The translations under genes were made by a program, and so were the position numbers. Below, piece by piece: positions 4,913-37,166 of a stretch of 64,000 nt of DNA. The notes beneath the pieces were generated by a model. That model saw nothing but the letters and a program-made list of their open reading frames with translations, did no database searches and was not told where the DNA came from. The stretch's first letter is position 1. Each line of letters starts with the position of its first letter. This DNA is from Labilibacter sediminis (GTDB lineage: Bacteria > Bacteroidota > Bacteroidia > Bacteroidales > Marinilabiliaceae), in contig NZ_VCHY01000002.1 of NCBI RefSeq assembly GCF_005877885.1, positions 124,001-188,000 on the forward strand, in the 5' to 3' direction.

Positions 4913-5533
4913 TTAAAGATTACCTAATCCTTCAACTGAACTTTCAACTAGAACTAATGCTCCGGCTTTCATAATACTGTAAGTATTTAATTCAGCTAAT
5001 GTTACTACTTCCGATTTTTGGATATTTCTTGAAGCAAGGTAAACATTCTTATCAGCTTGGTTTAAAACAACCAATGAACGTTTTCCGTCTACTTTAAGAC
5101 TCTTACGGATTTGAGCGAACTCTTTTGTTTTAGCAGATTCCATACTGAAATCTTCTACTACAATAATATTACCAGTTTTAGCTTTATATGACAAAGCCGA
5201 TTTACGGGCAAGCTCTTTAAGTTTGCGGTTTAATTTAAATCCGTAATTACGTGGACGAGGACCGAAAATACGACCACCACCACGGAACACACCAGACTTG
5301 ATGCTACCTGCACGGGCAGTACCAGTTCCTTTTTGTTTCTTAATTTTACGAGTACTTCCAGTGATTTCTGCTCTCTCTTTTGACTTATGGGTTCCTTGAC
5401 GTTGATTTGCAAGGAACTGTTTTACATCAAGATAGATAGCATGATCATTGGGCTCAATACCGAAAACAGAATCTGCTAACTGAACAGTCTTTCCGGTCTC
5501 TTCTCCTGTTATGCTTAATACTTTTAGTTCCAT
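4913..5533 (-). CDS. rplD: 50S ribosomal protein L4
   Basis: L4 (206 aa) lines the exit tunnel; in E. coli it also represses the S10 operon. The extended loop is seen as [20 protein letters not shown] (about residues 68-87). The start codon overlaps the rplC stop by one base (TAATG), indicating coupled translation. Whether L4 regulates this operon is not shown, but a stem-loop precedes rplC at 6181-6215. Confidence 0.97.
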
Positions 5534-32830: not shown

Positions 32831-33526
32831 TCATTTATCCGACAATACATAACCCACACTTGGCACATTCTCGATTTTTATTTGCGGATCGGATTTTAAG
32901 TACTTTCTGAGTTTAGCGATAAAAACATCTAAACTCCTACTGTTAAAATAGTCATTGTCTCCCCAGAGTGAAAGCAAGATATCATCGCGCTTGACCACTT
33001 TATTCTTAGCAAAAGCCAACATCTTTAGAACTTCGTTTTCCTTTTGGGTAAGACGTTTATTTTCAGAACCTTTTCTTAGACATAAGTTTTCGTGGTCAAA
33101 TTCAAAAATACCAATATTCAATACCTTAGATTGACTCTCGAACTTCTCATCTGGTTGACACCTGCTCATTATAGCATTAATACGACACAAAAGCTCCTCC
33201 TCATCAAAAGGCTTGTTGATATAATCATCCACACCTATATTGAATCCTTTGATTTTATCTTTTTTCTGATTCTTCGCCGTTAAAAAGATTATAGGTACTT
33301 TTTTGTCTTTTGCCCTTATCTTTTCTGCGATAGAAAAACCATCTAAACCGGGAAGCATAACATCAAGAATACAAAAATCATACTTTGACTGCTCAAATGC
33401 TCTTAAGCCTTGTACACCATCTTTATAAAGCTTAACATCAAAACCATTGGATTCTAAATAGTCAACTAACAGGAAACCCATGCTAGTATCGTCTTCTACT
33501 AATAATATTCTGTTTTTTTGTGTCAT
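32831..33526 (-). CDS. OmpR-family response regulator
   Basis: The 231-residue protein has a receiver domain (acidic pair D12-D13, phospho-acceptor D55 in ILDVMLPGLDG, conserved Lys in YINKPFDEEE) and a C-terminal winged helix (LTQKENEVLKMLAFAKNKVV, RDDILLSLWG, VFIAKLRKYL). It is co-transcribed with the kinase encoded nine bases upstream. OmpR-family proteins bind direct repeats; a phased array at 34860-34897 upstream of this operon is a candidate site, implying autoregulation. Confidence 0.95.
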   Translation of the reverse strand: MTQKNRILLVEDDTSMGFLLVDYLESNGFDVKLYKDGVQGLRAFEQSKYDFCILDVMLPGLDGFSIAEKIRAKDKKVPIIFLTAKNQKKDKIKGFNIGVDDYINKPFDEEELLCRINAIMSRCQPDEKFESQSKVLNIGIFEFDHENLCLRKGSENKRLTQKENEVLKMLAFAKNKVVKRDDILLSLWGDNDYFNSRSLDVFIAKLRKYLKSDPQIKIENVPSVGYVLSDK

Positions 33527-33535
33527 TCAATTAAA

Positions 33536-34780
33536 CTATCCCTGCTTAAACTTAATAACAAAGGTACTACCTTTTCCTAACTCACTTTCTATGTCAATTG
33601 TGGCTTGGTGATTATCCGCTACTTTTTTAACAAAGTCGAGCCCTATTCCAAAGCCTTTAATATCATGAACATCTCCTGTAGAAACCCTGTAATACTTTTC
33701 AAATATATTTCTATAATCTCTGGATGAAATACCAATTCCATTATCTGAAACAGCTAAATAGAACTTATTGTTTTTTGAATAAGTATGAATAAGTACTTTC
33801 GGTTTTTTATCATTATACTTTAAAGCATTATCAATTAAATTACAGACAGCATGTCGAATATAGTCCTCCTGGCCTAGAATGAATGAATTTGATGCATCTA
33901 ACTTTAAAATCAGCTCACCTCCTTTCTCCTGTACCAGTAGCTTATATATTTCTTCGCATCGATACAAAACGGAATGAAAATCAAATTTGGTCTTAACATT
34001 TTTTTGACTGATCATTGAAGCTACCCTTAAGATATCTTCCACAAGACCTTCCATCTTATCATTTTCAGATTGAATTAAACCAGTATAACCAATGGCTTTC
34101 TCATCAGAATCCTTGTTTAACTTCTTTTTTAGCAGATTTGATGCAAAACGAACATTGGCAATAGGCGTTTGAAACTCATGCACCATATTATCAATAAAAT
34201 CCTTGGTGTTTGCAAGTATTGCTTTTTCATTTCGAAATAATCGAGAAGTAAAAATGAAGGAAATCATTACAAATAATATGGCTCCAATAGAAACGTAAAA
34301 CAAGCCTCCCATTTGCGCGTATAGAAACTTACTATAATTAGGAAATTCAATCTGTAGTTTTATTCCGTTTTGCTCCAACAAACCATTTAGCGACTGTTCA
34401 TAACACGTTATACACAACTGATGATTTTCTAACTCATGCTCATTTATAAACTCAAATTTATAATCTAAATTAATTTGATGAATAGATAAATTGGAACTTA
34501 AAATACTATCTACCTTTTGAAAGTTGATATACTGTAATTCGGCTGAACATTGTTTACCACAAACGTAGTTATGCATATAATTACATGCTCTGGCTTCACG
34601 TGCTATTTCATTTCGTGATTCCCTTAAAGCCAAAACTACCCTATGGTTAAAATTTTTCTCCTCAAGTTTACTCGCCCTATATAAAAACAATATTTGAATT
34701 ACCATCAGGCTCACTAAAACAGAAAATGTAACACCTGCTAAAAGTGATTGCTTGTCAATTTTTTTAATCATAAACTTCAC
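33536..34780 (-). CDS. sensor histidine kinase with cysteine-rich periplasmic domain
   Basis: The 414-residue membrane kinase has a first helix at about 12-35, a periplasmic domain at about 36-156, a second helix at about 157-178, HisKA with H201 (NMVHEFQTPIANV), and HATPase with N-box NLIDNALKYN and G-boxes DNGIGIS and GFGIGLDF. The sensor domain holds five cysteines: C66, C74, C78 and a CxxC at C123/C126, with H70 nearby. This arrangement is suited to metal or redox sensing. The start may be M1 or M4. It is divergent from a small Cys-rich secreted peptide gene. Confidence 0.94.
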   Translation of the reverse strand: MKFMIKKIDKQSLLAGVTFSVLVSLMVIQILFLYRASKLEEKNFNHRVVLALRESRNEIAREARACNYMHNYVCGKQCSAELQYINFQKVDSILSSNLSIHQINLDYKFEFINEHELENHQLCITCYEQSLNGLLEQNGIKLQIEFPNYSKFLYAQMGGLFYVSIGAILFVMISFIFTSRLFRNEKAILANTKDFIDNMVHEFQTPIANVRFASNLLKKKLNKDSDEKAIGYTGLIQSENDKMEGLVEDILRVASMISQKNVKTKFDFHSVLYRCEEIYKLLVQEKGGELILKLDASNSFILGQEDYIRHAVCNLIDNALKYNDKKPKVLIHTYSKNNKFYLAVSDNGIGISSRDYRNIFEKYYRVSTGDVHDIKGFGIGLDFVKKVADNHQATIDIESELGKGSTFVIKFKQG

Positions 34781-34823
34781 TACTTCATAGAGAATTCGTA
34801 GAACTCTATTAATATCTTGGCAT

Positions 34824-34831
34824 CAAAAATA
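34824..34831 (-). promoter_or_regulatory. candidate promoter -7 element of the kinase-regulator operon
   Basis: Minus strand TATTTTTG (perfect TAnnTTTG), with a TTG at 34848-34850 as a possible -33 element at 16-base spacing. It lies 43 bases before the kinase start. Confidence 0.45.
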
Positions 34832-34859
34832 TAAATAAATACACTGACAATTAAGCACT

Positions 34860-34897
34860 TTAACAACTCATTAACATGGATTAACAGCAAAATAACA
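34860..34897. promoter_or_regulatory. phased TTAACA direct repeats in a divergent promoter region
   Basis: TTAACA occurs at 34860-34865, 34871-34876 and 34881-34886, and ATAACA at 34892-34897. The spacers are 5, 4 and 5 bases, a period of 10-11 bp, so all lie on one helix face. Direct repeats with this spacing are how OmpR-family regulators bind; the motif resembles the B. subtilis PhoP box (TTAACA-type). The array lies between the kinase operon and the Cys-rich peptide gene and could control both. Confidence 0.65.
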
Positions 34898-34965
34898 TAA
34901 ATTGTGCCTGGATCATACAATATTTGTATTGATAACATTTATTAATAATTACAAAAACAACAATT

Positions 34966-35175
34966 ATGAAAAAGTCAATTGCAGTATCGTTTCTTTTCTT
35001 ATTTATGGTAGCAATCGCTTCACCAGTAATGGCAACAGATTCAATTCAAGAGCCTGAAAAAACAGAAAAAACTGCTGATAAAAAGTGCGACAAAGAAGGT
35101 AAAAAAGAATGTTGCAAAAAAAAGTGTGATAAAGAAAAGAAAGCTGAATGCAAAAAAGAATGCAGTAAAAAATAG
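34966..35175 (+). CDS. small secreted Cys/Lys-rich peptide
   Basis: The protein has 69 residues. A signal peptide (MKKSIAVSFLFLFMVAIASP, then VMA) is followed by a mature part of about 46 residues. This is almost only Lys, Glu, Asp and Cys, with six cysteines in KKCDKEGKKECCKKKCDKEK and KAECKKECSKK. I know no family for it. The spacing of cysteines recalls metal-chelating or metallothionein-like peptides, but that is inference. It is divergent from a kinase whose sensor domain is also Cys-rich, and has its own terminator at 35200-35228. A possible -7 element, AATATTTG, lies at 34919-34926. Confidence 0.85.
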   Translation: MKKSIAVSFLFLFMVAIASPVMATDSIQEPEKTEKTADKKCDKEGKKECCKKKCDKEKKAECKKECSKK

Positions 35176-35199: not shown

Positions 35200-35228
35200 A
35201 AAAGCTATCCTTTCGGGATAGCTTTTTT
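35200..35228 (+). terminator. intrinsic terminator of the Cys/Lys-rich peptide gene
   Basis: AAAAGCTATCC (35200-35210) pairs with GGATAGCTTTT (35216-35226) around a 5-base loop, followed by T residues. It lies 25 bases after the stop codon. Confidence 0.93.
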
Positions 35229-35270
35229 TATTTAAATTAATGATGTATTTTAGCATAGCCACACAAAATC

Positions 35271-37166
35271 ATGCTAATGCACAAGCTATTAACTTATCTT
35301 CTATTTGCGGGATTACCATTCCTTTGTTATGCAAACCCAATTGATAGTATAAACCAGAAACTTGACCAATTAAGCAGAGAGGAGAAGCTGGAGGCATTAC
35401 ATGAACATAGCATCTCTTTGGCTCCTACAGATCCTATACAGGCGCAAATTTACGCTAGAGAATTACTTAAATTATCAAAAAAAGACCAATATAGATATAA
35501 AGGGCTCGCGCACTACGATTTAGGTGAGACTTATTATTACATGGAGCTTTATAAGGAAGCATTGGACAGCTACAAAAAAGCAGAACCATATTTAATTGTT
35601 GCAAACGACAGCTCCAGACTTGCAGGAAACTATAGTAATATTGGTTTAATTTATTTATATCAGGCCAACTATAAAAAATCCTTGTCATACTATGAAAAAA
35701 GCTTACAACTGGAAACTAAGCTTAACGATAGTTTAGGCGTGGCTAAGAGCTTGCAAAACATAGGAATAATCTTTGGTAACTGGAGTCGTTACGAGGTTCA
35801 GGAAGATTATTACAAAAAAGCCCTTAAGATTTACAAAAAGCTCAATGATACTCAATCCATTGCAGATATATCACTAAACCTTGGCGTAACCATGATAAGA
35901 CAAGGTGCAACTAATGAGGCTTACGATTACTACAAACAAGCACTTAAAGCATATGTTACAACAAAGGACAGTAGCCGAATAGCTTCGGTATATACAAACC
36001 TGGGCTATTACTGCACCAACGTAAGTCAATATGATGAAGCTCTCTCCTATTTCCAAAAATCCATACAAATATTTAAACAAATAAATGAGAAATCAGGATT
36101 AATTCATGCCTACACAGGACTTGGAGACCTTATGGCTGTACAAGGGAACAACAAGGGTGCCATTGAAATGTATATGAAATGCGAAGAAATAAATGCTACG
36201 GTTGGATTATTACACACACAACAGGAGAACATATACAGCCTATACGAGAATTATAAAGCTATTGGTGATTTTGAAAATGCCATAAGGGTGCTTGAGGAAT
36301 ACCACCAAATAAAAGACAGTATTTATAGCAAGGAACAATTCAACAAAATCCTTCAGCTAGAAGATAAGTTTATCCATCAAAAAAATAAAAGTGAATTAAC
36401 TGCACTTAAAGCCCAGAATAAGCTATATGCAATTTCCTCCATACTTCTTTTATTTTTTCTTATTTCAGGAGGATTATTTGCTTTTTACTACAAACGAAGT
36501 AAGCGATTAATTAAAAACCAAAGACTCATGAGTCTTGAACAAAAAGTACTTCGCACACAAATGAATCCTCATTTTATATTTAACTCGTTATCAGCCATTC
36601 AATGCTATGTTTTAGATAATAAAACCATGGATGCTGTTGACTTTTTAGCCGACTTTGCAAGTTTGATGCGAATGGTTTTACAATACTCGCAAGAAGAATA
36701 TATTACACTGGAGCAAGAAAGAAGTATACTTGATCATTATATTAGCCTGCAAAACAAACGATTTGGAGATAAAATTAAATACAAAATTGTGATTGATGAA
36801 CATCTGGAAAAGTCAAAAACAATGATACCTCCAATGCTTGCTCAACCCTTTATTGAAAACTCATTTGAACATGGTGAGTTATACAGACGAGAAAATGGAA
36901 ATATTACTGTGAAGTTTGAGAAAAAATCTAAAAATATTTCCTTTTGCATTGAAGATAACGGGATTGGTATTTCCCGAAATACTTCTTCGAAAAACCACAC
37001 AACAAGTACTCATAAATCGTTAGCCATGAAAATTACAAAAGAAAGGCTAAAACTCATCAACAAAAACATCCATAACAAAGTTGGCCTTCAGGTGGAAAAC
37101 AGAGCCAAATATGGACAAGATGGCACCCGGGTTGAATTTACTATTCCATTAGTAGAAATGAATTAA
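35271..37166 (+). CDS. TPR-containing LytS/YehU-type sensor histidine kinase
   Basis: The 631-residue protein has a signal peptide (the start may be M1 or M3), about seven TPR repeats (residues 50-345, for example YSNIGLIYLYQANYKKSLSY), a coiled coil, one membrane helix (about 388-408) and a LytS-type kinase domain with RTQMNPHFIFNSLSAIQ. The ATPase part shows PPMLAQPFIENSFEHG and EDNGIGIS. Such kinases normally pair with a LytTR response regulator, but none is adjacent, so it is an orphan here. Confidence 0.93.
   Translation: MLMHKLLTYLLFAGLPFLCYANPIDSINQKLDQLSREEKLEALHEHSISLAPTDPIQAQIYARELLKLSKKDQYRYKGLAHYDLGETYYYMELYKEALDSYKKAEPYLIVANDSSRLAGNYSNIGLIYLYQANYKKSLSYYEKSLQLETKLNDSLGVAKSLQNIGIIFGNWSRYEVQEDYYKKALKIYKKLNDTQSIADISLNLGVTMIRQGATNEAYDYYKQALKAYVTTKDSSRIASVYTNLGYYCTNVSQYDEALSYFQKSIQIFKQINEKSGLIHAYTGLGDLMAVQGNNKGAIEMYMKCEEINATVGLLHTQQENIYSLYENYKAIGDFENAIRVLEEYHQIKDSIYSKEQFNKILQLEDKFIHQKNKSELTALKAQNKLYAISSILLLFFLISGGLFAFYYKRSKRLIKNQRLMSLEQKVLRTQMNPHFIFNSLSAIQCYVLDNKTMDAVDFLADFASLMRMVLQYSQEEYITLEQERSILDHYISLQNKRFGDKIKYKIVIDEHLEKSKTMIPPMLAQPFIENSFEHGELYRRENGNITVKFEKKSKNISFCIEDNGIGISRNTSSKNHTTSTHKSLAMKITKERLKLINKNIHNKVGLQVENRAKYGQDGTRVEFTIPLVEMN

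Follow-up and report, generated by a model that had tools for sequence, protein, structure and literature searches.

A two-component system and a divergent Cys/Lys-rich exported peptide in Labilibacter sediminis: a candidate dedicated envelope-stress circuit

The kinase, the regulator and the divergent peptide gene

The window, that is, the whole 64,000-nucleotide stretch of Labilibacter sediminis DNA analysed here, contains a two-component system and, divergent from it across a shared promoter region, the gene for a short exported peptide (Table 1). The system is of the OmpR/PhoB family, with a HisKA and HATPase_c kinase beside a Response_reg and Trans_reg_C regulator. To our knowledge, few two-component systems of the Bacteroidota have a known signal or regulon.

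Table 1. Features of the locus, in window coordinates
Feature	Position	Strand	Details
OmpR/PhoB-type response regulator, RprY paralogue	32831-33526	-	231 aa; Response_reg 6.7e-30, Trans_reg_C 2.7e-17
Membrane histidine kinase, RprX-like	33536-34771	-	411 aa from ATG 34771; HisKA, HATPase_c
Operator-like array, four TAAC direct repeats	34861-34896	+	starts 34861/34872/34882/34893; spacing 11-10-11
-7 promoter element AATATTTG	34919-34926	+	TAnnTTTG type, one mismatch; 58 bp from array start
Cys/Lys/Glu-rich exported peptide gene	34966-35175	+	69 aa; Sec-type signal ~23 aa; 6 Cys
Intrinsic terminator of the peptide gene	35200-35229	+	hairpin -14.7 kcal/mol, z -5.83, then T-run
TPR-repeat and LytS-type His_kinase gene	35271-37166	+	631 aa; downstream of the peptide gene

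Within NCBIfam, the regulator is closest to RprY, of the RprX-RprY system that PMC3646045 describes in Bacteroides and Porphyromonas. Identity with RprY is rejected: the regulator scores 255.2 bits against the RprY equivalog (NF051850), for which the curated cut-off is 370 bits, and the genome has a separate RprY of its own on contig C351 (391.7 bits), so the window regulator is a paralogue. Another paralogue, on contig C311, scores 271.3 bits and also falls under the cut-off.

The kinase more likely starts at the ATG at 34771 than at the alternative GTG at 34780 (open reading frame 33536-34780), because its orthologues align at the ATG. With the membrane segments read from the sequence by eye, the sensor comprises ~120 aa and carries cysteines at positions 63, 71, 75, 120 and 123 (ATG numbering). 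An earlier note on this DNA had reported five sensor cysteines including a CxxC; the count stands, but the CxxC (C120-C123) is not the conserved part, as C120 is present in only four of 27 aligned sensors. The others are found in 27 (C71), 26 (C63), 25 (C75) and 20 (C123) of these sensors, and a CGxxC motif, itself a CxxxC, in 25 of the 27; distant sensors do not retain it. The AlphaFold model of the sensor reached a mean pLDDT of only 67.3 and no PDB match was found at E <=0.001, so structure is not used as an argument for the sensor.

The signal of the peptide starts MKKS, without twin Arg, and is followed by a QEPxKxE motif. Cleavage after residue 23, as placed by manual reading of the sequence, leaves a mature peptide of ~46 aa with 6 Cys, 17 Lys and 8 Glu, which bears out the exported peptide of about 46 residues, six cysteines and many lysines of the earlier note. 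The peptide is the only one among 119 ATG open reading frames of 40-110 aa in the window to combine at least four Cys with at least 15% Lys. Searches of Pfam and NCBIfam (E <=0.1) assign it to no family, and no PDB sequence matches it at E <=1. The product is predicted to be exported by Sec to the periplasm, and the gene is probably monocistronic, given the strong hairpin and T-run on its 3' side. No LytTR regulator directly adjoins the TPR/His_kinase gene that lies downstream; a comparable TPR gene is found 3' of the peptide in several loci of the window's genus.

Conservation of the pairing and of the promoter

Conservation was assessed in 61 genomes, the window's own and 60 relatives. The sensor matches in 31 of these at E <=0.01, and strongly (E 1.3e-37 or better) in 21, with 22 matches. 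In 19 of the 21 strong-kinase loci, the window's own included, a Cys/Lys peptide is divergent from the kinase and adjoins it; in L007 and L009 the peptide lies ~5 kb away. A set of 26 named-record loci, mostly Marinilabiliaceae, has an adjoining divergent peptide in 24. There is overlap between the sets, since 15 of the 26 loci lie on contigs of the same length as contigs of the first set (L098 and L099 are L007 and L009), and with each locus counted once the peptide adjoins in 30 of 32. The pairing is therefore conserved in relatives, contrary to the outcome that the earlier note had named as speaking against it. Together with a near-private promoter, this supports that note's proposal of kinase, OmpR regulator and divergent Cys/Lys peptide as a self-contained module. 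The peptide as query matches in 28 of the 61 genomes at E <=0.1, two of them doubtful (G014, G053). Across the family it retains its signal and the QEPxKxE motif; its Cys-containing part, of low complexity, does not align well.

The regular repeat array that had been noticed in the shared promoter region is real, and consists of the four TAAC repeats listed in Table 1. It precedes a box of the TAnnTTTG type, the Bacteroidota-type -7 element. All four repeats are free of mismatches in 22 of the 26 named-record loci, and the -7 box lies at +58 in every one of these 22, with an exact TAnnTTTG in 19; in L095-L097, from the window's genus, the box at +58 has one mismatch. There is no perfect array in L098, L099, L100 and L119, of which L100 and L119 (= L010 and L016) retain two repeats.

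The bare array occurs in the window's own genome at 21 sites with up to two mismatches, against 13 in the reversed control, and is perfect at only two, the peptide promoter and one site on C311. The composite promoter, array plus -7 box, is more restrictive: with up to three mismatches allowed, it occurs in this genome at two sites only, marking the peptide and a paralogous two-component system. On C311 (L093, array at 5397), the site separates this second pair of kinase and regulator from a divergent gene, the 353-aa product of which has a signal-like N-terminus and no Pfam family. A further array site, on C314 (L094), belongs to a contig that encodes a Copia-type polyprotein (identified by eye) and is probably eukaryotic contamination of the assembly.

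Across the 61 genomes, the composite promoter with at most one mismatch is found at 38 sites in 27 genomes and never in the reversed control. Judged by position and neighbouring open reading frames, 18 of the 38 precede the peptide. Thirteen lie beside another kinase gene, with HisKA in all 13; these kinases are called RprX-like from matches to the sensor query in seven and, by eye, from similar N-termini in the rest. One site is at a 4-Cys gene of G043, another precedes a Cys-free peptide homologue in G018, and five have other or no assigned targets (G003:C125, G007:C8, G034:C37, G051 and G018:C243), the neighbourhoods at G007:C8, G034:C37 and G051 giving no clear target. By this distribution, the TAAC array is a general mark of RprY-like regulators, each of which seems to have few strong targets. 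For the circuit in the window, the peptide would be essentially the only strong target, as predicted from one promoter pattern; a single pattern could miss weaker targets, given that two-repeat loci exist.

Seven genomes (G011, G020, G025, G026, G029, G035 and G036) have a peptide match and no strong kinase match, so the kinase would be dispensable in some genomes. In five of them (G011, G020, G025, G029 and G035), the peptide region adjoins, and is divergent from, a TolC-MacAB-type operon in the order OEP (TolC-like), HlyD, ABC ATPase and MacB/FtsX. The domains of all four genes were verified in G029, and that of the OEP gene also in G011, G020 and G035. The array at these five loci has 0-2 mismatches, and the peptide match in G035 is weak. 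In G011, G025 and G029 the closest counterpart of the window regulator (47-52% identity, E 3e-66 or better) has no kinase adjoining; these three are probably orthologues of the window regulator, to which the RprY copies of the same genomes are about equally similar (48-49%). G020 and G035 have an RprY-like regulator copy only. Around the peptide-like genes of G026 and G036, the stretch inspected contains no kinase and no array. At L194, L195 and L196, regulators closest to the window's again have no kinase adjoining, and are flanked, as read by eye, by asd- and tsaB-like genes or by tsaB- and helicase-like genes.

Sensor cysteines, output proteins and peptide chemistry

More distant relatives allow the sensor and its output to be compared. 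A sensor profile search of 295 genomes of the class gave matches at 1e-6 in 120, and 29 loci (L122-L150) were inspected. Among the 12 best matches outside the family (L123-L134), all five kinases with at least four sensor Cys (G233, G280, G124, G329 and G262) face a secreted protein with 7-9 Cys. None of the other seven, with at most two sensor Cys, faces such a protein: three face a CxxCH protein (G078, G109 and G253), three another protein, and the one in G193 a 49-aa fragment. In G078 the kinase is also adjoined by a lipoprotein of 61 aa with 6 Cys, just under the lysine threshold. The weaker matches (L135-L150) have no Cys/Lys peptide among the neighbours listed. The family of G233 (12 genomes) yielded no kinase match beyond G233 itself. 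Beside the distant Cys peptide of G124 (L153, 2231-6823) lie OsmC-like genes (by eye) and genes for a methyltransferase, a radical SAM protein and a thioredoxin/pyridine-nucleotide reductase fusion.

Both kinds of output occur within one genus of 36 genomes, of which 16 have a kinase match; 14 loci were assessable. A Cys/Lys peptide is the output at all seven loci where the sensor has at least four Cys; at all seven where it has two, a cytochrome c-like CxxCH lipoprotein lies opposite the kinase. The promoter is the same throughout: each of the 14 loci carries a perfect 4xTAAC array at 11-11-11 and a -7 box at +59. With the three CxxCH proteins scanned, no cytochrome c model in Pfam reached its curated cut-off; Cytochrome_CBB3 matched at E 0.013-0.09, and DHC, the best match, at 0.0019 in one protein. 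Six other peptides searched against NCBIfam and the distant peptides against Pfam gave nothing above the curated cut-offs.

The association was scored in 45 loci, L098 and L099 having been excluded beforehand and L217 and L218 from scoring. With three or more sensor Cys, 31 loci have the peptide and none lacks it; with two or fewer, 12 lack it and two (L110 and L120, both with two Cys) have it. The tree implies four changes of sensor state and three of output; independent pairs number three when all branches are used and one when only the well-supported branches are. The pairs drawn point in the expected direction, and the events are too few for significance in a phylogenetic test of co-variation. 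With so few independent changes, the coupling of sensor cysteines to output is supported, not proven.

Peptide chemistry was analysed in 27 family peptides (the window's and those of the 26 named-record loci, with approximate cleavage sites). Their composition is 34% Lys, 18% Glu and 12% Cys, with 0.0% Arg and His. The number of Cys ranges from four to eight and is odd in nine of the 27, and in six of eight distant peptides. The usual tight metal-binding motifs of metallothionein type, CxC and CxxC, are absent from all 27, against 24.6 and 23.4 expected from shuffles, an expectation that ignores the repeat-like build of the peptide. Enrichment is seen for Cys spacings of 6 and 7, and not for CxxxC (19 observed, 22.6 expected). 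The eight distant peptides likewise contain no CxC or CxxC and prefer CxxxC (20 against 9.8 expected). A helical stripe of Cys receives no support in either set: 68 of 300 shuffles score at least as high for the family peptides, and 270 of 300 for the distant ones.

These properties bear on the nature of the peptide. A disulfide-folded miniprotein is disfavoured, since the odd Cys numbers argue against a fixed disulfide fold and no Cys spacing is conserved among the family peptides. In bufferins and related MNIO-modified metal-binding peptides, a DUF692 (MNIO) enzyme is encoded beside the precursor; there is none among the nine window proteins scanned. The complete lack of CxC and CxxC in the 27 family and eight distant peptides rejects a classical metallothionein, and sets the window peptide apart from the metallothioneins discussed in PMC7558416, which are small and Cys-rich as it is. 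Csp1, from the same source, is also exported and Cys-rich, but its signal is Tat, which the peptide's is not. The hydrophobic four-helix core of Csp1 would not be expected in a peptide that is about one-third Lys; for a folded bundle of this kind, the PDB search gave no sequence match and the Cys stripe does not exceed shuffles. This leaves a putative metal-binding or redox-buffering thiol polymer. One homologue departs from this chemistry: that of G018 (L067, G018:C171, 486-713; 46% identity, E 0.002) is Cys-free and Lys-rich, contains four His, and has a perfect array and -7 box.

A possible circuit and its alternatives

Considered together, conservation of the pairing and of the promoter makes it very probable that kinase, regulator and one dominant peptide target form a circuit. 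Its function is less secure. The favoured reading, with a probability of about 0.5, is a dedicated envelope-stress circuit: the kinase would respond to a thiophilic metal or a thiol oxidant, and the peptide would titrate the stressor, giving negative feedback. Such a circuit would involve: thiol-reactive stress in the periplasm acting on the conserved Cys cluster of the sensor; binding of the phosphorylated RprY-like regulator to the four TAAC repeats and activation of the -7 promoter at its fixed distance, a step suggested by the conserved promoter architecture; export of the peptide by Sec; and titration of the stressor by the low-complexity thiolate peptide, which would thereby quiet the kinase, by analogy to CpxP. 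The peptide would thus probably act as a sink for metal or oxidant on the outer side of the inner membrane.

The stressor would most likely be a thiophilic metal such as Cu(I), otherwise an oxidant, and the odds of the thiophilic-metal version are about even. Four His and no Cys in the G018 homologue are as expected for a metal ligand. The CxxxC spacing, which the CGxxC motif of the sensor has, binds copper in Sco proteins and forms the putative copper site of CutF (PMC7558416). Several observations count against this version: no metal transporter was found among the nine window proteins scanned (~29.0-40.7 kb), the family peptides contain no CxC, CxxC or His and are not enriched in CxxxC, distant sensors do not retain CGxxC, and the CxxCH lipoprotein that replaces the peptide as a paralogous output fits a redox signal as well as a metal. 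It is possible, if rather unlikely, that the kinase instead reads the thiol/disulfide state of the periplasm, as set by oxidants, electrophiles or failing electron transport, with the peptide as a sacrificial thiol buffer. The avoidance of CxC and CxxC and the lack of any conserved Cys spacing are consistent with this, as is the genus in which two-Cys kinases face the CxxCH lipoprotein and those with at least four Cys the Cys peptide, under the same promoter type (7/7 each). However, the Cys-free homologue of G018 would have no thiols to offer, and the three CxxCH proteins resemble cytochrome c only below the curated cut-offs.

The remaining alternatives concern what the peptide acts on. Its divergent placement, a promoter with nearly a single target, the conserved QEPxKxE segment and the lysine-rich charge would all suit a co-sensor or feedback inhibitor of the kinase that, like CpxP, sequesters nothing in bulk. 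A protein with one binding partner would not be expected to have a low-complexity Cys part that aligns so poorly, and in seven genomes the peptide matches with no strong kinase match for it to act on; this role is improbable. Still less credible, and very doubtful in absolute terms, is an antimicrobial or export function, for which the TolC-MacAB-type operon of some genera would be the true context of the peptide. The divergent peptide region and array beside that operon in five genomes speak for it. Yet the link is confined to genomes with no strong kinase match, no transporter lies between kinase and peptide at the kinase loci, and the signal, read from the sequence, is of Sec type with no double-glycine leader.

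Comparison with known systems places this circuit within a familiar plan. CpxA-CpxR-CpxP of E. coli likewise joins an OmpR-type two-component system to a small periplasmic accessory protein, the gene for which is divergent and driven by the Cpx regulator, and ZraSR-ZraP is another two-component system with a periplasmic accessory protein. Divergence and a conserved promoter architecture are both present, at the level of sequence, in the window. CpxP is a folded helical chaperone, whereas the window peptide is low-complexity and Cys-rich, and its lack of any Pfam family argues against membership of the CpxP/Spy/ZraP chaperones. CpxP inhibits CpxA autophosphorylation, and Cpx is described as modulating >100 genes (PMC4160245), in contrast to the strong promoter of the window peptide, which is nearly unique in its genome. 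DbfQ, a small periplasmic protein that acts on DbfRS in Vibrio cholerae (PMC12714742), is also encoded beside its two-component system; it belongs to a different phylum and is likened here by its description. Among the best literature matches, which included few subscription papers, no description of the kinase-peptide pairing or of the TAAC array was found. The peptide falls in no family scanned. The general arrangement, a periplasmic accessory protein encoded divergently from a two-component system, is known.

Should the peptide be a metal or oxidant sink, it would represent a low-complexity solution, unlike the folded metallothioneins or copper-storage proteins. The predicted operator can be read to the base pair and has one dominant predicted target, the thiol chemistry of which mirrors that of the sensor, and these features open the signal to direct testing. 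Searching for the promoter architecture could also identify probable private targets of RprY-like regulators throughout the class. A broader and more tentative reading, somewhat short of even odds, is that private envelope circuits are widespread in the Bacteroidota, each made of RprX/RprY paralogues, a stereotyped promoter (four TAAC and a -7 box at 58-59 bp) and a single secreted effector encoded divergently, and that sensor chemistry and effector are swapped as a unit. If so, the Cys version would use an unstructured thiol/lysine polymer both as a sink for the stressor and as the off-switch of its own sensor. One paralogue-type array (G003:C125, L174) stands in front of a gene for a trypsin-PDZ (HtrA/DegP-like) protease; HtrA/DegP belongs to the Cpx regulon, which this arrangement resembles.
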